The notes under the pieces: model-generated
Database searches by the model: none
Seen by the model: only the letters and a program-made list of their open reading frames with translations
Told to the model about the DNA's origin: nothing
Translations under genes and position numbers: made by a program
In this document: one piece after another, positions 5,159-12,966 of the stretch
Position numbering within the stretch: the first letter of the stretch is position 1
Layout: each line of letters begins with the position of its first letter
DNA from: Candidatus Rokuibacteriota bacterium
GTDB taxonomy: Bacteria > Methylomirabilota > Methylomirabilia > Rokubacteriales > JACPHL01
Assembly (NCBI GenBank): GCA_016188625.1
Contig: JACPHL010000274.1
Coordinates: 1-14,881, forward strand
Reading direction: 5' to 3'
DNA length: 14,881 nucleotides

Positions 5159-5164
5159 TATAAT
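5159..5164 (+). promoter_or_regulatory. -10 box (TATAAT) of the M16/exporter operon, predicted leaderless
   Basis: A perfect TATAAT ends 8 nt before the ATG at 5173, in sequence that is otherwise strongly GC-rich. No convincing -35 is visible 16-18 nt upstream (GCGCGA lies at 17 nt). The distance implies a transcript starting at or very near the ATG. The same arrangement precedes the second M16 gene at 11024. Confidence 0.65.
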
Positions 5165-5172
5165 GGCCCGGG

Positions 5173-6513
5173 ATGACTGCCGCGCGGCGCCTCGTCTCCC
5201 TCCTGGTGCTGCTCCTCGCCCTCTCGGCCCCTGCCCAGGCCGCCGAGGTCCTCGAGGCGATCCTCGACAACGGCCTCAAGGTCCTCCTCCTCGAGGATCA
5301 TCGGAGCCCGGTCGCGACGTTCCAGATCTGGTACCGGGTCGGCTCCCGCAACGAGCGCCCGGGGCTGACCGGGCTCTCCCACCTCCTCGAGCACATGATG
5401 TTCAAGGGGACCGCCAGGTTCGGTCCCGGGGTCTTCGCCACGACCATCGAGCAGCTCGGCGGCCAGGACAACGCCTTTACCTCCCAGGACTACACCGCCT
5501 ACTTCGTCAACCTCGCCGCCGACCGCCTGGACGTCGTCCTCGAGCTGGAGGCCGACCGGGTGCAGCACCTCTTGCTCGATCCCAAGGCCTTCGAGGCGGA
5601 GCGCCGGGTGGTCCTGGAGGAGCGGCGGACGCGGACCGAGGACGATCCGGTCTCGGCCATGGCCGAGGAGCTCGGCGCCATCGCCTTCCGGCTCCACCCC
5701 TACGGCCTGCCGATCATCGGCTACAAGGAGGACATCGAGCGCCTGACCGTGGAGGACCTCCGCGCCTGGTACCGCGCCTATTACGCCCCGAGCAACGCCC
5801 TCGTCGTGGCGGTGGGGGACTTCAACGCCGCGGAGCTCCTGGAGAAGATCCGCAAGGCCTTCGGCGCGATCCCCCGGGGGCCGGATCCCCCGCCGGTCCG
5901 GGTGGTCGAGCCGGGGCAGGACGGGGAGCGGCGGGTGGTGGTGAAGAAGCAGGAGGCGCGCCTGGCCTTCGTCTTCATGGGCTATCTGACCCCGAACCAC
6001 GCCTCGCCGGACAGCTTCGCCCTGGATGTCCTGGCCACCATCCTCGCGGCGGGGCGGAGCTCGCGCCTCTACCAGGGCCTGGTTTACGAGCAGCGGCTGG
6101 CCCTGGACGCGGGCGGGGACTACAGCTTCCTGGCCTCGGACCCCGACCTCTTCACCTTCTACGCGAGCGTCCTGCCGGGCAAGACCGTGGAGGAGGTGGA
6201 GCGGGCGCTCCTGGCCGAGGTCGAGCGGCTCAAGACCGAGCCGGTCACCGACGAGGAGCTGGCCCGGGCCAAGAACCAGATCGACGCCGGCTTCGTCTTC
6301 CGGCAGGACTCCGTCTTCCGCCGCGCCATGACCCTGGCCCGCTTCGAGCTCGCCGGTGACTGGCGCCTCATGGACCGCTATCTCCCGGGGATCCGGGCCG
6401 TGACCCCGGCCGACCTCCTGCGGGTGGCCCGGACCTACTTCGATCCGGACAGGCGGAACACCGGGATCCTGCTCCCCCTCGCGTCCCACGGACCCGCCGT
6501 CCCGGACCGGTAG
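5173..6513 (+). CDS. M16 zinc metallopeptidase (catalytic subunit), secreted/periplasmic
   Basis: This 446-residue M16B (processing-peptidase-like) protein has an N-terminal signal peptide: a hydrophobic core at 7-19 and an AQA cleavage site near 23. The inverted zinc motif HLLEH is at 70-74, with E150 exactly 76 residues after H74, matching the family's HxxEH-x76-E pattern, so the zinc site is intact. The second M16 domain (about 185-420) has GRSSRLY with R298, but the Tyr usually found 13 residues later in this block is Leu (L311), so the Arg/Tyr pair is incomplete. That is the pattern of the catalytic member of two-subunit M16B enzymes, whose partner supplies Arg/Tyr; the gene at 11037 has exactly that complement. 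A 16-nt gap leads to the HlyD gene, so it is probably cotranscribed with the exporter. The substrate is unknown. Confidence 0.93.
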   Translation: MTAARRLVSLLVLLLALSAPAQAAEVLEAILDNGLKVLLLEDHRSPVATFQIWYRVGSRNERPGLTGLSHLLEHMMFKGTARFGPGVFATTIEQLGGQDNAFTSQDYTAYFVNLAADRLDVVLELEADRVQHLLLDPKAFEAERRVVLEERRTRTEDDPVSAMAEELGAIAFRLHPYGLPIIGYKEDIERLTVEDLRAWYRAYYAPSNALVVAVGDFNAAELLEKIRKAFGAIPRGPDPPPVRVVEPGQDGERRVVVKKQEARLAFVFMGYLTPNHASPDSFALDVLATILAAGRSSRLYQGLVYEQRLALDAGGDYSFLASDPDLFTFYASVLPGKTVEEVERALLAEVERLKTEPVTDEELARAKNQIDAGFVFRQDSVFRRAMTLARFELAGDWRLMDRYLPGIRAVTPADLLRVARTYFDPDRRNTGILLPLASHGPAVPDR

Positions 6514-6529
6514 GCGCGGGTACGAGTCG

Positions 6530-7858
6530 ATGGCCCGCCCCCGCCCGAGTCATCTCCTCATCGGCCTGCTGCTGCTCGCCGCCGGGCTCGCCGCGGCCGC
6601 CCTCGGCTGGCGCGCCCTGGCCGACCGCGAGGCCGGCCGCCGGGCCGTGAAGGTCTCGGGGACCGTCGAGGCGACCCGCGTCGAGGTCGCGGCCAAGATC
6701 TCCGGACGGATCCTGGCCATCGCGGTCCGGGAGGGTGAGGCGGTCGTTCCCGGACAGCTCCTGGTGAGGCTGGACGACGAGGAGCTCGAGGCCGCGGCGG
6801 CCCGCCTGGCGGCCGCGCTCGGCACGGCCCGGGCCGAGCTCCGGGACCTCGAGGCCGGGGCGCGCCGGGAGGAGCTCGAGGAGGCCCAGGCCGCGGTGGC
6901 GCGCGCCCGGGCCCGGCTCCGGGACCTCGAGGCGGGGGCGCGTCCCGAAGAGATCGAGGAGGCGACCCGGGCCGTCGAGCACGCCCGGGCCCGGCTCGAG
7001 GACCTCGAGGCCGGGGCGCGACCCCAGGAGATCGAGCAGGCGAGGAGCGCCCTGGCCACCGCCACGGCGACCCGCGAATGGGCCGAGCGGGAGTGGCAGC
7101 GGATGGCCGAGCTCTTCGCCCAGGGGCTGGTGGCCGCCAGGGAGCGCGACCGGGCCCGTCGCGAATACGAGGTCGCGCGGGCCGAGGAGCGGAGCGCCGG
7201 GGAGCGGCTCGGGCTCGTCCTGGCCGGGCCGCGACCGCACCAGGTCGAGGCGGTGCGGGCCGAGCTGAGGGCGGCCCAGGAGCGATTGGCCCTCCTGAAG
7301 GCCGGGCCGCGGCCGCACCAGGTCGAGGCGGCGCGGGCGGAGCTGCGGGCGGCCCAGGAGCGGCTGGCGCTGCTGGAGGCCGGGCCGCGGCCGCACCAGG
7401 TCGAGGCGGCGCGGGCCCGGGTGACCGAGGCGCGCGCCATGCTCGCCCAGGCCCAGGCCCGCCTGAAGGAGACCCGGATCCACGCCCCGCTCGCCGGCGT
7501 CGTCCTCCGGAAAAACCTCGAGGCCGGCGAGACCGCGACCCCGGGTGTCCCCATCCTGACGCTGGTGGATCCCCGGGACCTCTGGCTCCGGGCCTACATC
7601 CCCGAGCCCGAGATCGCCCGGGTCAAGGTCGGCCAGCCCGCCCGGATTATGGTGGACGCCTTCCCGGCCCGGGGATTCCCCGGGCGGCTCGTCGAGATCG
7701 CCTCCGAGGCGGAGTTCACCCCGAAAAACGTCCAGACCCAGAAGGAGCGGGTGAACCTCGTCTTCAGGATCAAGATCGCGGTGGAGAACCCCGAGGGGAC
7801 CCTCAAGCCCGGGATGCCCGCCGACGCCGTGATCCTCGTCGGGCCGGGCGCGGAGTGA
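6530..7858 (+). CDS. HlyD-family periplasmic adaptor (membrane fusion protein) with repeat-built coiled-coil
   Basis: This adaptor is expected to link an inner-membrane ABC exporter to an outer-membrane channel. The protein has 442 residues: a membrane anchor/signal helix (9-27), the first half of the lipoyl domain (about 41-82, with AKISGRILAIAVREGEAVVPGQLLV), a long helical hairpin (about 85-315), the second lipoyl half (RIHAPLAGVVL, then ETATPGVPILTLVD) and a beta-barrel domain (350-395). The end, with QTQKERVNLVFRIKIAVEN and LKPGMPADAVIL, is typical of the YbhG-like branch. The hairpin consists of three 26-residue repeats on each arm (104-181 and 227-304), sharing L..L.AG.RP....E. ATG 6530 is preceded by only a weak ribosome site. 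Its stop overlaps a GTG start of the ATPase gene. No outer-membrane TolC-like gene is in the window. Confidence 0.93.
   Translation: MARPRPSHLLIGLLLLAAGLAAAALGWRALADREAGRRAVKVSGTVEATRVEVAAKISGRILAIAVREGEAVVPGQLLVRLDDEELEAAAARLAAALGTARAELRDLEAGARREELEEAQAAVARARARLRDLEAGARPEEIEEATRAVEHARARLEDLEAGARPQEIEQARSALATATATREWAEREWQRMAELFAQGLVAARERDRARREYEVARAEERSAGERLGLVLAGPRPHQVEAVRAELRAAQERLALLKAGPRPHQVEAARAELRAAQERLALLEAGPRPHQVEAARARVTEARAMLAQAQARLKETRIHAPLAGVVLRKNLEAGETATPGVPILTLVDPRDLWLRAYIPEPEIARVKVGQPARIMVDAFPARGFPGRLVEIASEAEFTPKNVQTQKERVNLVFRIKIAVENPEGTLKPGMPADAVILVGPGAE
6839..7072 (+). repeat. Three 78-bp tandem repeats, first arm of the HlyD coiled-coil
   Basis: Codons 104-181 of the adaptor consist of three in-frame 26-residue units, each beginning L(R/E)DLEAGAR and ending in an Ala/Arg-rich helix. 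The first two units share most bases, including CTCCGGGACCTCGAGG. The exact multiple of three keeps the heptad-like helix register. Confidence 0.8.
7208..7441 (+). repeat. Three 78-bp tandem repeats, second arm of the HlyD coiled-coil
   Basis: Codons 227-304 are three 26-residue units, each with AGPRPHQVEA. The DNA beginning at 7301 and at 7379 (78 nt apart) is identical for about 37 bases, pointing to recent duplication or gene conversion. Period and unit number match the first arm. Confidence 0.85.
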
Positions 7859-8856
7859 CCGTCCCCATCCCGACGGCGGCGGGGGCGATGCGCCGGGACG
7901 CGGTGATCACCGAGGGGCTGACCAAGCGGTTCGGGTCGCTGACCGCCGTGGACCGGATCGACCTGCGGGTCGGCGAGGCGGACCTCTACGGCTTCCTCGG
8001 CCCGAACGGGGCGGGGAAGTCCACCACCCTCCGGATGCTCTGCGGCATCCTGGAGCCCACCGCCGGCCGGGGCACGGTGCTCGGGTTCGACATCGTCCGC
8101 GAGCCGGAGCGGATCAAGGCCGCCATCGGCTACATGTCCCAGCGCTTCTCCCTCTACGACGACCTGACCGCGGTGGAGAACCTCGCCTTCTACGCCGCGG
8201 TCTACGGCGTGCCGCGGCGGGAGCGGGCGGCCAGGATCGAGCGGATGGTCCGGCTCGCCGACCTCACCGGGCGCGAGGGGGCGCTGGGGGGGCAGCTCTC
8301 GGGCGGCTACCGCCAGCGCCTGGCCCTGGCCTGCGCCCTCGTCCACACCCCGCGCCTCCTCTTCCTCGACGAGCCGACCGCGGGGATCGATCCGGTCTCC
8401 CGGCGGAACTTCTGGGGGCTCATCCGCCGGCTCGTCGAGGGGGGCGTCACGGTCGTGGTGACGACCCACTACATGGACGAGGCCGAGCACTGCGACCGCC
8501 TCGGCTTCATCTACCAGGGCCAGCTCATCGCGCAGGGGACGCCGGAGGCGATCAAAACCGAGGCGTTCCGGAAGCCGGTCCTGGTGGTCGAGGCGGCCGA
8601 CCTCCGCCGGGCCGGCGACCTCCTCGAGGGGTGGGAGGCGGTGGAGGAGGTGGTCAGGCTGGGGCAGACCCTCCGCGTGGTCCTCGCCGAGGAGGGACGG
8701 GCCCCCGGAGACGTCGCCGCCTGGCTTGAGGCCCGAGAGGTCCGGGCGACCGTCGAGCGGGTCCCGCCCTCCATCGAGGACCTCTTCGTCTCCTTCGTGG
8801 ACCGGGAGCGGAAGGCGCGGCTCCGGGCCCAGCTCCGGGCCGTGGACCGGGGGTAG
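7855..8856 (+). CDS. ABC transporter ATP-binding protein (ABC-2 exporter)
   Basis: This ATPase drives the ABC-2 exporter encoded with the adjoining HlyD and permease genes (YbhF-like arrangement, single nucleotide-binding domain). It is 333 residues from GTG 7855. Motifs: Walker A GPNGAGKST (49-57), Q-loop YMSQ (Q96), signature LSGGYRQR (148-155, Tyr where Gln is canonical), Walker B LLFLDEP (168-174, E173 catalytic) and H-loop TTH (H205). The C-terminal region after about 235 is the extra domain common in this subgroup. GTG 7855 overlaps the adaptor's stop (GTGA) as in the pgl/glk junction, and the 11 codons it adds all end in G or C. ATG 7888 (322 residues), which begins immediately before the conserved domain, is a reasonable alternative start. 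Confidence 0.92.
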   Translation: MTVPIPTAAGAMRRDAVITEGLTKRFGSLTAVDRIDLRVGEADLYGFLGPNGAGKSTTLRMLCGILEPTAGRGTVLGFDIVREPERIKAAIGYMSQRFSLYDDLTAVENLAFYAAVYGVPRRERAARIERMVRLADLTGREGALGGQLSGGYRQRLALACALVHTPRLLFLDEPTAGIDPVSRRNFWGLIRRLVEGGVTVVVTTHYMDEAEHCDRLGFIYQGQLIAQGTPEAIKTEAFRKPVLVVEAADLRRAGDLLEGWEAVEEVVRLGQTLRVVLAEEGRAPGDVAAWLEAREVRATVERVPPSIEDLFVSFVDRERKARLRAQLRAVDRG

Positions 8857-8860
8857 GCCC

Positions 8861-9982
8861 ATGCGCCTGGCCGGGATGATCTGGAAGGAGTTCATCCACC
8901 TCCGCCGGGACCCGCTGGCGGTAACCCTCATGCTCTTCGTCCCGGTCGCCATGCTCTTCATCTTCGGCTACGCGATCAACACCGACGTCAAGCACCTGCC
9001 CACGGTGGTCTTCGACCAGTCCCGGGACGTAGAGGTCGCGCGGCTGCTCGAGGCCTTCGCCAACAGCCAGTACTTCGACCTCCGGTACCGGGCCCGCGAC
9101 CTCGAGGAGGTGACACGCCTCATCGACGCCGGATGGGCCAAGGTGGGGATCGTCATCCCGCCGGACTTCGCCCGGCGCCTGACCGGCCACGGCTCGGCCG
9201 CCGTCCAGGTCATCGTGGACGCCTCGGACCCGATGGTGGCCACCTCGGCCGTCAACGCGGCGACCGCCCTGGGGCTCGAGCGCTCCATCACCCTCCTGCG
9301 GCGGGCCGGGGACGGTGCGCTCTCGCGGGTGGAGGCGCCGCCCCTGGACGTCAGGATCCGGGCCTGGTACAACCCCGACCTCGAATCGGCGATCTTCATC
9401 GTCCCGGGGCTGGTGGGCGCCCTCCTCATGCAGACCACCATCACCATCATGGCGATGGCCGTCGTCCGGGAGCGGGAGCGGGGGACCCTGGAGGCGCTGA
9501 TCGTGAGCCCGATCCGGCGCTGGGAGCTGATGCTGGGGAAGATCGTCCCCAACCTCCTGGTGGCGTACGGCCAGATGACCCTGGCCCTGGCCGTGGCGCA
9601 CTTCGTCTTCGGGGTCCCGATCCGGGGGAGCCTCGCGCTCCTCTACCTCCTCTCGGCCCTCTTCATGCTGGGGACGCTGGGGGTCGGGATCTACATCTCC
9701 ACGGTGGCGAGCACCATCCCCCAGGCGATGCAGCTCGGCTTCCTGGCCATCTTCCCGAGCATCTACCTCTCGGGGCTCCTCTTCCCGATCGAGGGGATGC
9801 CCTGGCCCGCCCAGTGGCTGGCGGCCGTCATCCCGCTCACCTACTTTTTGCGGATCCTCCGGGGGATCATCCTGAAGGGGATCGGGATCGGGTATCTCTG
9901 GCCGGACATCTACCCCCTGGTCCTCTTCGGGGCGGCCGCCTTCACCCTGAGCGTGCTGCGCTTCCGGAAGTCCCTGGATTAG
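8861..9982 (+). CDS. ABC-2 type transporter permease
   Basis: This is the inner-membrane subunit of the exporter (373 residues, YhhJ/YbhS/YbhR-like). Topology read from the sequence: a cytoplasmic helix with KEFIHLRRDP (9-18), TM1 at about 20-39, a large extracytoplasmic domain at about 41-170, then five further hydrophobic segments near 178-202, 226-250, 257-281, 290-309 and 350-366. The cytoplasmic RERERGTLEALIVSPI (203-218) after TM2 is the family's hallmark coupling region, and SGLLFPIEGMP (304-314) is the typical late loop. Only one permease is present, so it is expected to homodimerise; YbhFGSR-type systems often have two. ATG 8861 lies 4 nt after the ATPase stop. What is exported is not evident; drugs, lipids and peptides are all known for the family. 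Confidence 0.92.
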   Translation: MRLAGMIWKEFIHLRRDPLAVTLMLFVPVAMLFIFGYAINTDVKHLPTVVFDQSRDVEVARLLEAFANSQYFDLRYRARDLEEVTRLIDAGWAKVGIVIPPDFARRLTGHGSAAVQVIVDASDPMVATSAVNAATALGLERSITLLRRAGDGALSRVEAPPLDVRIRAWYNPDLESAIFIVPGLVGALLMQTTITIMAMAVVRERERGTLEALIVSPIRRWELMLGKIVPNLLVAYGQMTLALAVAHFVFGVPIRGSLALLYLLSALFMLGTLGVGIYISTVASTIPQAMQLGFLAIFPSIYLSGLLFPIEGMPWPAQWLAAVIPLTYFLRILRGIILKGIGIGYLWPDIYPLVLFGAAAFTLSVLRFRKSLD

Positions 9983-10006
9983 ACTCGGGGGGGGCGAAGC
10001 CCCCCC
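9983..10006 (+). terminator. GC hairpin directly after the ABC permease stop codon
   Basis: GGGGGGGC (9988-9995) pairs perfectly with GCCCCCCC (9999-10006) around a GAA loop, starting a few bases after the TAG at 9980-9982. It resembles the element at 3321-3342 in sequence (ACTCGGGG lead-in) and placement. It is followed by TTCC rather than a clear U-tract. A terminator or 3'-end stabilising role is inferred. Confidence 0.5.
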
Positions 10007-10019
10007 TTCCGACGGCCCT

Positions 10020-10056
10020 CCGGGCAAAGCCCGGCCGTTCGCCCTTCGGCGAACGG
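10020..10056. repeat. Two adjacent perfect hairpins in a convergent spacer
   Basis: CCGGGC (10020-10025) pairs with GCCCGG (10029-10034) across AAA, and immediately afterwards CCGTTCGCC (10035-10043) pairs with GGCGAACGG (10048-10056) across CTTC. With the preceding hairpin this makes three back-to-back stems between the convergent permease and DUF1059 genes. The GTTCGC/GCGAAC stem also occurs at 3102-3119, in the other convergent spacer. The rest of the spacer to 10118 is C/G-rich with no gene seen. Confidence 0.6.
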
Positions 10057-10118
10057 ATCGGGCCTGCCTCCCCCCCAAGGCTCAGCTCGGGAGAGGCATC
10101 GGCGAGGGGGCGCTAGGG

Positions 10119-10295
10119 CTATTCGTCCTTGATGGCCGCCCGAGCCTTGGCGGCCACCTCGGGCGGGAGCGTCGGCAGGCAGTGTTCCTGCTGGACGTGC
10201 TCGGCGGCCTTGGCCATGACCTCCTCGACGTCCTCGCCCTCGATGACCGCCTTACAGAACGGCATCAGCTCGCTGCACCTGAGGACCTTCGCCAT
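10119..10295 (-). CDS. DUF1059-like small protein (58 residues)
   Basis: This is a small minus-strand gene, ATG at 10295 and TAG at 10119-10121. The product begins MAKVLRCSELMPFCKAVIEG, continues with EDVEEVMAKAAEHVQQEH and ends in AARAAIKDE-like sequence. That layout resembles the DUF1059 family of roughly 60-residue soluble proteins: an N-terminal Cys-containing beta segment, a charged EEVM..AAEH helix and a C-terminal ARAAI.DE tail. It has Cys at 7, 14 and 39. No biochemical function is established for the family that I can state. A consensus AGGAGG ribosome site (10308-10303) lies 7 nt upstream, so this is a real gene despite its size. It follows the CBS gene by 40 nt and is probably cotranscribed with it. 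Confidence 0.85.
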   Translation of the reverse strand: MAKVLRCSELMPFCKAVIEGEDVEEVMAKAAEHVQQEHCLPTLPPEVAAKARAAIKDE

Positions 10296-10302
10296 GCCCC
10301 AT

Positions 10303-10308
10303 CCTCCT
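10303..10308 (-). promoter_or_regulatory. Consensus Shine-Dalgarno (AGGAGG) of the DUF1059-like gene
   Basis: AGGAGG on the minus strand with a 7-nt gap to the ATG is the best ribosome site in the window and fixes the start of the 58-codon gene. Its first two bases (10308-10307) can pair into a hairpin (10307-10313 with 10324-10331, one bulged base), so partial masking is possible. Confidence 0.7.
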
Positions 10309-10335
10309 CGGGGCGCGGGCTCCCCTCCGAGTCCG

Positions 10336-10860
10336 TCAGCCGCCGTCCACCTCGGTCGGGCGCTTGAGCCGGTCGCCCGGTCGCAGGTTCAGCACCGCCT
10401 CCGGGAAGATCTCGGCCAGCCACTTGACCACGTCCTTGACGGTGACGACCCCGATGGGGCGATGCTCGGAGTCCACCAGCGGGACGGTCCGGTAGCCGGC
10501 GTTGTTCATCCGGTTGATGGCGTAACAGATCCGGTCGTTCGGGGCGAGGGCCTCCGGATCGGGCGTCATGACCTCGCCGAGCCTCGTGGCACGGGGATCC
10601 CGGCCCGCCCCCACGACCCGGGTCAGGACATCCCGCTCCGTGAAGATCCCGATGAGGCGCCCCTCGGGGTTCACGATCACGACCGCGGCGCGCCGGTTGG
10701 CCAGCATCTGGCCGATCGCCTCCTCGACGGTCGCCTCCACGGTGAGCTTGATGGGGAGGCTCGGCGCCAGGAGGCTGACGGTCTCGCTGAGGAGCGCCTC
10801 CTCGAGCTTTCGGAACTCCCTCTCCAGGGACTCGGAGTATTCATCCAGGAACTCGGCCAT
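10336..10860 (-). CDS. Tandem CBS domain protein
   Basis: This 174-residue soluble protein has an acidic helical N-terminus (1-25, EYSESLEREFRKLEEALL) followed by a CBS pair. CBS1 spans about 34-85 (ATVEEAIGQMLANRRAAVVIV, then RLIGIFTERDVLTRVV) and CBS2 about 95-150 (VMTPDPEALAPNDRICYAINRMNNAGYRTVPLVD, then PIGVVTVKDVVKWL). CBS pairs (Bateman modules) bind adenine nucleotides, and the two (T/S)x(R/K)D-type motifs, FTERD at 73-77 and TVKD at 140-143, are the usual ribose/phosphate contacts. No enzyme or transporter domain is attached, so it is a stand-alone module of unknown partner. It is transcribed away from the second M16 gene, with a strong SD (GGGGAGGG, 10872-10865) 4 nt before its ATG. 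Confidence 0.9.
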   Translation of the reverse strand: MAEFLDEYSESLEREFRKLEEALLSETVSLLAPSLPIKLTVEATVEEAIGQMLANRRAAVVIVNPEGRLIGIFTERDVLTRVVGAGRDPRATRLGEVMTPDPEALAPNDRICYAINRMNNAGYRTVPLVDSEHRPIGVVTVKDVVKWLAEIFPEAVLNLRPGDRLKRPTEVDGG

Positions 10861-10936
10861 GGATCCCTCCCCGGTCCGTCGTCGGCCCTGGCCGGGGGCA
10901 TCCAGCCTCCCGAGGGCTCACGGTGGACTTGCCGGG

Positions 10937-10965
10937 AGTCTAGGCCGCCGCCGCAGGGCTGTCAA
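10937..10965 (-). promoter_or_regulatory. Promoter of the CBS/DUF1059 operon
   Basis: On the minus strand a perfect -35 TTGACA (10965-10960), a 17-nt spacer and -10 TAGACT (10942-10937) form a near-consensus housekeeping promoter. The predicted transcript has a leader of roughly 70 nt before the ATG at 10860, unlike the leaderless promoters at 5086 and 5159. Confidence 0.7.
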
Positions 10966-11000
10966 GGGCGAGGTTGCCCCCTGGCTCGGCGATCCCGACC

Positions 11001-11029
11001 TTCCCACCGTGGCGGGCTTGGCCTATAAT
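11001..11029 (+). promoter_or_regulatory. Promoter of the second M16 operon, predicted leaderless
   Basis: A -35-like TTCCCA (11001-11006, 4 of 6), a 17-nt spacer and a perfect TATAAT (11024-11029) end 7 nt before the ATG at 11037. Transcription should therefore begin at about the start codon, leaving no room for a ribosome-binding leader. The design repeats that of the first M16 gene. Confidence 0.7.
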
Positions 11030-11036
11030 CGGGCTG

Positions 11037-12392
11037 ATGCCTCCCGGGCCAGCTCCCTCGCGGTGCCGCCTTCGCCCGGCCGCGCTTCTCCTGGCGCTCC
11101 TTTTGGGGTTCGCCGCCCCCGTCGCCGCCCAGGACCTGGCCGTCCGCGAGCTCCTCCCGAACGGCGTGACCCTCCTCGTGGCCGAGCGCCCCGCCCTGCC
11201 CATCGTCGTCCTCCGCGCCTGGATCCGGGCCGGTGCCATCCTGGACTCGCCGGGGAAGGCCGGCCTCGCCAACCTGACCGCCGAGCTCCTGACCCGGGGG
11301 ACCCGCACCCGGACCGGCCGCCAGATCGACCAGGCCATCGAGTTCGTGGGCGGCTCGCTCTCCTCCGGGGGGGGCCGCGACGGCATCGTGGTCTCCCTGT
11401 CGGTGCTGAAGAAGGACCTCGCCCTCGGGCTGGACCTGGTGGCCGACGTCCTGCTCAACCCGACCTTCCCCCAGGAGGAGTTCGAGCGCAAGGTCCAGGA
11501 GATCCGCGCCGCCGTCCAGCGCGCCGAGGAGAGCCCGGAGACGGTCGCCTCCAAGGCGTTCCGCCGCCTGGTCTTCGACCCGCACCCCTATGGCACCCCC
11601 GTGGAGGGGACCGTCGAGTCCCTGGGCCGGCTGACCCGGGATGATGTGGTCGCCTTCTACACCGAGACCTACCGGCCCCAGGAGACGGTGGTCGTGGCGG
11701 TGGGCGATGTGACGCGGGACGAGATCCGGGTCGCCCTCGAGCAGCGGCTCGGCGGCTGGCCCATGCGCCCGCGGGCGACCGCAAGCCCCGCGGCGGCCCC
11801 CCTCGGGGGACCGGCGAAGACCCGGACGATCCAGAAGGACGTGAGCCAGGCCTCGGTCCTGCTCGGCCAGGCGGGCATCGGGCGGCACCACCCCGACTAC
11901 TACGCCCTCCAGGTGGCGAGCTACATCCTTGGTGGAGGCTCCGCCTCCCGGCTCTACCACCGCCTCCGGGAGGAGCGCGGGCTGGTGTACAGCGTGTACA
12001 GCTACCTCGCCCCGGGCCGGTACGGGGCCGTCTTCGAGCTGGGCTTTCAGACCAGGAACGATGGGGTCCGCGAGGCCCTCGAGGTCGTCCGTCAGGAGCT
12101 GACCCGTCTCCGCCATGAGTGGGTCTCGGAGGAGGAGGTGGCGCGGGCCAAGGCGTACCTCATCGGGAGCTTCCCGCTCCGGATGGACACCACCGGCGAG
12201 GTCGCCGGCCTCCTGCTCACCATCGAGGAGCACGGGCTCGGCCTCGACTACCCCTCGCGCTTCCGCGGGCTCATCGAGGCGGTCAGCGTGCAGCAGATCT
12301 TCCAGGCGGTCCGGACCCACTGGGACCCCGACGCCATGATCCTCGTGGTGGTCGGGAACCTCAAACAGGCCGGCCTCCCCGCCAGCGAGTAA
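11037..12392 (+). CDS. M16 family protein lacking the zinc site (non-catalytic partner subunit), secreted/periplasmic
   Basis: This 451-residue M16B-fold protein has a signal peptide: Arg-rich n-region, hydrophobic core at 15-27 and AQ cleavage region near 31. Where the catalytic HxxEH should lie it has NLTAE (79-83), and the third ligand position is Ala (A159), so it cannot bind zinc in the usual way. The second domain keeps the substrate-gripping Arg/Tyr pair in GSASRLYHRLREERGLVYSV (R305, Y318). This is the mirror image of the peptidase at 5173, which has zinc ligands but Leu in place of the Tyr, and it matches known two-subunit M16B proteases. The ATG at 11037 is chosen because TATAAT ends 7 nt before it and it directly precedes the signal peptide; the frame upstream lacks signal-like sequence. 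It is followed after 4 nt by a secreted protein gene. Confidence 0.91.
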   Translation: MPPGPAPSRCRLRPAALLLALLLGFAAPVAAQDLAVRELLPNGVTLLVAERPALPIVVLRAWIRAGAILDSPGKAGLANLTAELLTRGTRTRTGRQIDQAIEFVGGSLSSGGGRDGIVVSLSVLKKDLALGLDLVADVLLNPTFPQEEFERKVQEIRAAVQRAEESPETVASKAFRRLVFDPHPYGTPVEGTVESLGRLTRDDVVAFYTETYRPQETVVVAVGDVTRDEIRVALEQRLGGWPMRPRATASPAAAPLGGPAKTRTIQKDVSQASVLLGQAGIGRHHPDYYALQVASYILGGGSASRLYHRLREERGLVYSVYSYLAPGRYGAVFELGFQTRNDGVREALEVVRQELTRLRHEWVSEEEVARAKAYLIGSFPLRMDTTGEVAGLLLTIEEHGLGLDYPSRFRGLIEAVSVQQIFQAVRTHWDPDAMILVVVGNLKQAGLPASE

Positions 12393-12396
12393 GGTC

Positions 12397-12966
12397 GTGC
12401 GAACCCTGGCCGTCCTCCTCGCCGTGGTCGCGCTGGCCGTAACCGCCCCGGCCCGGGCCGTCTACCTCGAGCCGACCCACGCGCAGGTCGCGGAGGCGGT
12501 CGAGGAGGGGCGGGCCAGCATCACGCGGGAGGAGTTCGGGCAGGAGTGGCTGGTGCGCCTGCCCGGCGGGGAGGAGGTGCGGGTCACCACGCCCTTCTCC
12601 CGGGTGGCCCTCGCCGCGCGGCAGGCGGCCTTCAAGGGGGAGCCGCTCGAGGAGCGGGAGATCCAGGGCCATCTCGACCGGGGCAAGGGGCGGATCCAGT
12701 TCCTCGTCGCCGTCCACGGCCCGAGGGTGGACTTTGCCCGCTGGTACGCGGCCGTCCTCCGGGTCGGCCAGCGGGAGATCAAGGCCGTCTTCGCCCAGAA
12801 CGAGCGGACCGCGCTCCGGCTCGAGGACGGCCGCTACCTCGCGCGGAACATCTATGCCTTTCCCACCGAGGGGTTCGCCCCCACCGGCACCGTCACCCTG
12901 GTGGTCCGGACCCGGGAAGGCAAGGAGGTCCTCCGCGTCCTCATCGACCTGGGCGCCATGCGCTGA
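12397..12966 (+). CDS. Putative secreted protein of unknown function
   Basis: I do not recognise this 189-residue protein. It begins at GTG 12397, 4 nt after the M16 partner's stop, with an AAGG-containing stretch overlapping that stop as a possible ribosome site. Residues 1-21 form a clear signal peptide (hydrophobic LAVLLAVVALAVTAPA, ARA cleavage site). The mature part starts VYLEPTHAQVAEAVEEG, has alternating strand-like stretches (EWLVRLPGGEEVRVTTPF, then a helix SRVALAARQAAF) and ends in predicted beta strands (TGTVTLVVRTREGKEVLRVLIDLG). It has no Cys in the mature part and no lipobox, so it is probably a soluble periplasmic protein. Its place in an operon with an M16 subunit and an AsmA-like protein suggests an envelope role, but no function can be assigned. 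Confidence 0.8.
   Translation: MRTLAVLLAVVALAVTAPARAVYLEPTHAQVAEAVEEGRASITREEFGQEWLVRLPGGEEVRVTTPFSRVALAARQAAFKGEPLEEREIQGHLDRGKGRIQFLVAVHGPRVDFARWYAAVLRVGQREIKAVFAQNERTALRLEDGRYLARNIYAFPTEGFAPTGTVTLVVRTREGKEVLRVLIDLGAMR

Follow-up and report, generated by a model that had tools for sequence, protein, structure and literature searches.

SPH2681 and SPH2682 of Sphingomonas sp. A1 were crystallised together as an M16B heterodimer, which cuts short peptides in vitro (PMC12731061). TTHA1264/TTHA1265 and AlbF/AlbE are M16B heterodimers too (PMC12731061), and the PDB title of 4NNZ describes subunit PA0372 of the heterodimeric zinc protease PA0371-PA0372 of Pseudomonas. In Helicobacter pylori, PqqE and YmxG form another complementary M16B pair, and PqqE without its partner retains ~70% of its activity (PMC8115454). 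The window analyzed here, a stretch of 14,881 nucleotides from the draft genome (2.6 Mb, 84% complete) of a Candidatus Rokuibacteriota bacterium, carries two M16 genes, A and B, with ~4.5 kb between them (6513 to 11037), as the initial annotation of the sequence had stated. That interval holds genes for an HlyD-type adaptor, an ABC ATPase and an ABC-2 permease, followed by DUF1059 and CBS genes on the opposite strand. The features of the locus are as follows:

5159..5164, plus strand: TATAAT (-10) of a predicted leaderless promoter, 8 nt 5' of the A start codon
5173..6513, plus strand: M16B zinc (active) subunit A, from Pfam, motifs, and matches to 4nnz_A and 3amj_C
6530..7858, plus strand: HlyD-type periplasmic adaptor of the exporter, from domain match and synteny
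7876..8856 (start provisional), plus strand: ABC ATPase (DrrA/RbbA-like), from domain match
8861..9982, plus strand: ABC-2 permease of the exporter, from domain match and order-wide search
10119..10295, minus strand: small DUF1059 protein of the divergent unit between exporter and B
10336..10860, minus strand: two-CBS-domain protein, in the divergent unit with DUF1059
11024..11029, plus strand: TATAAT (-10) of a predicted leaderless promoter belonging to B itself, 7 nt 5' of its start codon
11037..12392, plus strand: M16B partner (inactive) subunit B, from Pfam, motifs, and match to 3amj_B
12397..12966, plus strand: gene X, small exported protein, located behind B across the order

We consider it very likely that A and B together make up one periplasmic M16B heterosubunit peptidase, with A as its zinc and B as its Arg/Tyr subunit, that the exporter is a separate neighbor, and that B is transcribed from its own promoter. 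Both A (446 aa) and B (451 aa) contain PF00675 and PF05193 (Pfam), i.e., the ~50-kDa, two-M16-domain build that serves as the criterion for the SPH2681/SPH2682 type. A direct check of the residues found every motif that had initially been reported. The zinc site of A is intact (HLLEH 70-74 and E150), with L311 at the Tyr position; the zinc ligands of B are gone, NLTAE 79-83 replacing HxxEH and A159 replacing the third ligand, and R305 and Y318 are present. The N-termini of A (...LLLALSAPAQA/AE) and B (...LLLGFAAPVAA/QD) are Sec-type signal peptides by inspection, in keeping with the earlier claim that both proteins have one. The best solved-structure match of A was 4nnz_A (1.4e-97), followed by 3amj_C, titled "zinc peptidase active subunit" (6e-90), and the closest solved structure to B was 3amj_B, titled "zinc peptidase inactive subunit" (1.4e-56).

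The two residues of the Arg/Tyr pair fared differently. In IDE, the pair is R824/Y831, seven residues apart. The canonical M16 spacing is likewise 7, as in R298/Y305 of PttP (PMC8960859), and the functional Arg of B is R311, seven residues ahead of Y318, rather than the R305 initially proposed. Thus, the original Tyr assignment (Y318 in B, L311 in A) holds, while the Arg assignment (R305 in B, R298 in A) had to be abandoned. R298 of A corresponds to R305 of B; this near-invariant Arg, found in 248 of 253 sequences drawn from the two subunits, is best read as a structural residue common to both. Since the canonical positions of A are occupied by V304/L311, reassignment of the Arg to R311 leaves A without either member of a pair that B retains in full (R311/Y318), making the reciprocity stronger than it first appeared. 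In alignments with 3AMJ, the corresponding positions are V/V in the active chain and R/Y in the inactive chain.

The initial annotation held that the genes of such pairs are usually adjacent, and in most relatives outside the order A and B do directly adjoin; adjacent A-B genes were found in Nitrospirota, Methylomirabilota, Binatota, Gammaproteobacteria, and other phyla. At this locus, the closest relative with a name, a candidate division NC10 (Methylomirabilota) bacterium, shares 57% identity. We compared gene order in about 60 genomes of the window's order, where A-HlyD-ABC-permease-B occurs in 24 and A-B in 20. A precedes B on one strand in every genome with both on the same contig, and in many A-B genomes the start codon of B can overlap the stop codon of A. 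A search of the A-B genomes showed the orthologous exporter to be absent, save for a detached copy in genome G032, the other hits being distant permease paralogues. On the A+B tree the two arrangements alternate, and at least 11 changes are needed. The short gap between A and B in G058 retains a 33-codon scar that codes for the C-terminal 33 residues of the permease (E 2e-12), so the direction of change there was deletion of the exporter; exporter scars were sought in the other A-B adjacent genomes, and none was convincing. We infer one early insertion of the exporter and about ten later deletions, with the deletion itself shown for G058 only. The order-wide synteny therefore explains the spacing of A and B: the exporter lies between the subunits here and has probably been deleted in other genomes. 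Among the genomes compared, the CBS gene, and with it the divergent unit, occurs at this position in the window's genome only. Dense, G+C-rich inverted repeats were also observed at 9985-10110, right behind the permease stop, where the exporter operon's transcript perhaps ends.

Several genomes show the subunits and the exporter coming apart. In G002, the exporter and B are on other contigs, away from A, and in G003 the exporter has stayed next to A, and B is found at another place, beside a CorA-like gene and X. G048 (contig C429, L244) has kept the promoter, HlyD, ABC, permease, and X; its A is down to the first codons and a signal-peptide remnant, and its B is a fragment matching residues 95-163. 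This is a recent double loss of A and B. In its congener, G026, neither subunit scored above threshold, nor did the exporter or X. This fits a view of A and B as a unit, with the exporter independent of it. Two genomes count against the pairing: G009 (92% complete) has A and the exporter, with B and X not found in the assembly, and G005 has a broken A without B. G007 was examined as a further genome with A and without B and was rejected; the edge of its contig C196 encodes the C-terminus of B just before X, so that B lies in an assembly gap. Across the order, B orthologues are one-to-one with A, and A-B distances are correlated (r = 0.87; 0.85 in a second calculation). However, this value is no higher than for neighboring genes of the same operon, and the correlation alone is thus no proof of interaction.

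Gene X encodes 189 aa, is present in 52 of 59 genomes of the order, and has 30 invariant columns in 16 sequences. Its profile had no significant match in Pfam, NCBIfam, or the PDB and was not found at the loci outside the order, and its structure, predicted alone, had a pLDDT of 43.5. It represents a nameless exported family and an unstudied neighbor of the pair.

Where the exporter has been kept, it could be functionally tied to the peptidase, e.g., through transport or release of peptides cut by the heterodimer, with X as a third component, but we regard this as unlikely. Another reading, in which peptidase and exporter form one module, the HlyD/ABC-2 exporter handling a peptide that the M16 pair trims, would account for the gene placement, 24 genomes having the exporter trio co-linear with the two subunit genes. 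Furthermore, M16B pairs do act in peptide biosynthesis, e.g., AlbE/AlbF in subtilosin maturation (PMC12731061). However, some 20 A-B genomes, including G058 with its scar, do without the exporter, G048 retains it without A and B, and outgroups have no such exporter at the A-B locus. In addition, the permease is closer to the RbbA/DrrB type than to peptide exporters, and no precursor gene was seen. Considering these points, a single module appears very unlikely. A literature search for an M16 peptidase, HlyD, and an ABC transporter in one operon found nothing.

The initial annotation had also noticed the same unusual promoter design in front of A and B, and TATAAT does precede their ATG codons, by 8 and 7 nt, respectively. 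These are the only two TATAAT sites in the window, on either strand. Genome-wide, the pattern TATAATN5-10ATG occurs at 24 sites, including those of A and B, vs. 1 for a reversed control pattern, and TATAAT 5-10 nt before ATG is predicted to mark a small class of leaderless-type genes in this genome. Leaderless transcription with such spacing is described in two reports (PMC3160421, PMC12340547), and the distance from TATAAT to the start codon suggests that the A and B transcripts probably begin at the start codon itself, i.e., that both genes are probably transcribed without a leader. A sigma-70 scan did not pick up the A promoter, since it has no -35 match. Of 52 genomes of the order, 40 have the element in front of A, the expectation from the same loci being 0.006 per gene (per 200 nt). 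The element precedes B in only 2 of 49, namely in the window and in G003, two cases in which B does not immediately follow A or the exporter, and HlyD in 1 of 32, namely in G032, with its detached exporter. It was found before none of the ABC (0/33), permease (0/33), or X (0/44) genes, and the strict element is absent from the B genes of G002, G039, and G030, which are likewise away from A. Thus, some of the genes separated from the A operon, namely B here and in G003 and HlyD in G032, have a TATAAT of their own, which gives a reason for the shared design.

Other M16 genes occur in the same genome. A second complementary pair (C344:213-2592; L006) consists of an HFVEH zinc subunit and a partner whose frame is broken in the assembly, and a stand-alone M16B protein (C277:5091-6134; L007) has both a zinc site and an R/Y pair, and is of the homodimer type. 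Cross-pairing of A or B with the C344 pair or the C277 protein is conceivable.

The reciprocal losses claimed for the window proved to be an exact partition across the order's orthologues. All 53 A orthologues have the zinc site and lack both R and Y, and all 49 scorable B orthologues lack the zinc site and have both R and Y. At named loci of other phyla, the expected motifs were found in 72 of 78 A and 69 of 69 B sequences, the exceptions being fusion proteins or stand-alone paralogues. M16B homodimers of the BHP/BH2405 type are recognized by both motifs in one chain, and neither A nor B has both. These data bear on the possibility that A is a self-sufficient homodimer and B a pseudo-peptidase with some other role, such as chaperone or regulator, the two forming no composite site. 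BHP of Bacillus halodurans is indeed a homodimer (PMC12731061), the same genome encodes the complete single-chain enzyme of C277, and H. pylori PqqE is partly active alone (PMC8115454). However, BHP-type homodimers keep in one chain the two motifs that A and B divide without exception across the order, and the co-crystallised subunits of 3AMJ show the same division, making a self-sufficient A highly improbable. As for the initial description of an obligate heterodimer, sequence and synteny support a complementary pair, but "obligate" goes too far in view of the activity of Helicobacter PqqE alone.

Natural fusions are consistent with pairing of A and B in one enzyme. Single ORFs joining an A-type to a B-type half were found in Planctomycetota, Acidobacteria, cyanobacteria, Verrucomicrobia, and others. 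The predicted structure of one planctomycete fusion (L106) is a confident clamshell (pLDDT 88, pTM 0.88), its N-terminal half matching 5euf (Z 47.5) and 3ami_A (Z 44.7) and its C-terminal half 3amj_B (Z 46.5); as a whole, it resembles the single-chain M16 clamshells PqqL, FusC, and IDE. In the alignment used (A1, MAFFT), single-chain B rows landed on the N-terminal half, so that the C-terminal half of the model is supported by nine fusion rows only, although confidence there is still high. The single A+B ORF of G034 was rejected as a true fusion, the B signal peptide lying inside its linker.

A third arrangement, in which A partners another M16 protein such as the B-type subunit of C344 and the window's B is a relic, gains something from the presence of that second complementary pair but can be set aside as having almost no likelihood, given that the B reading frame is intact, that B matches A one-to-one throughout the order, at the correlation reported above, and adjoins A in relatives, and that the C344 partner adjoins an A-type gene of its own and has a broken frame in this assembly.

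With A and B read as one heterosubunit peptidase, the following scheme can be proposed. Sec would export both chains, which would then pair as a clamshell. A would supply HxxEH/E for zinc binding and water activation, and B would contribute the R311/Y318 pair that holds substrate and transition state, such that a short peptide is cleaved inside an enclosed chamber. The exporter would be dispensable, having come to lie between A and B early in the order and having later been deleted repeatedly with A and B kept. In this genome, the divergent CBS/DUF1059 unit would also have severed B from the A-exporter operon, and transcription of the severed B would start from a separate TATAAT promoter, leaderless like that of A.

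Two degenerate-looking, distant M16 genes can thus be read as one enzyme, a unit that pipelines annotating B as an inactive peptidase overlook. The order also offers a natural experiment, in which an intruding operon was apparently deleted repeatedly from loci that kept both subunits, and in which both subunits were lost from one that kept the intruder. The kind of enzyme is known; what this analysis adds is the correction of the R/Y assignment, the partition seen throughout the order, and a gene-order history that explains the split pair. Judged by their sequences, A and B belong to the M16B heterosubunit peptidases of the SPH2681/SPH2682 type. In 3AMJ/3AMI, A maps to the active and B to the inactive subunit, and the division between zinc site and R/Y pair is the same; the difference is that 4.5 kb, containing an exporter and a divergent CBS unit, separates the genes here. 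PA0372 (4NNZ) is the nearest solved sequence to A, but PA0371 and PA0372 are presumably adjacent, given their consecutive locus numbers, with no exporter between. TTHA1264/TTHA1265 and AlbF/AlbE match A and B more weakly in sequence, and AlbEF differs in being bound to subtilosin biosynthesis (PMC12731061). Separation of the subunit genes, although it might seem an anomaly, has a precedent in H. pylori PqqE (HP1012) and YmxG (HP0657), a complementary M16B pair at separate loci (PMC8115454), whose genes, unlike A and B, are fully unlinked.
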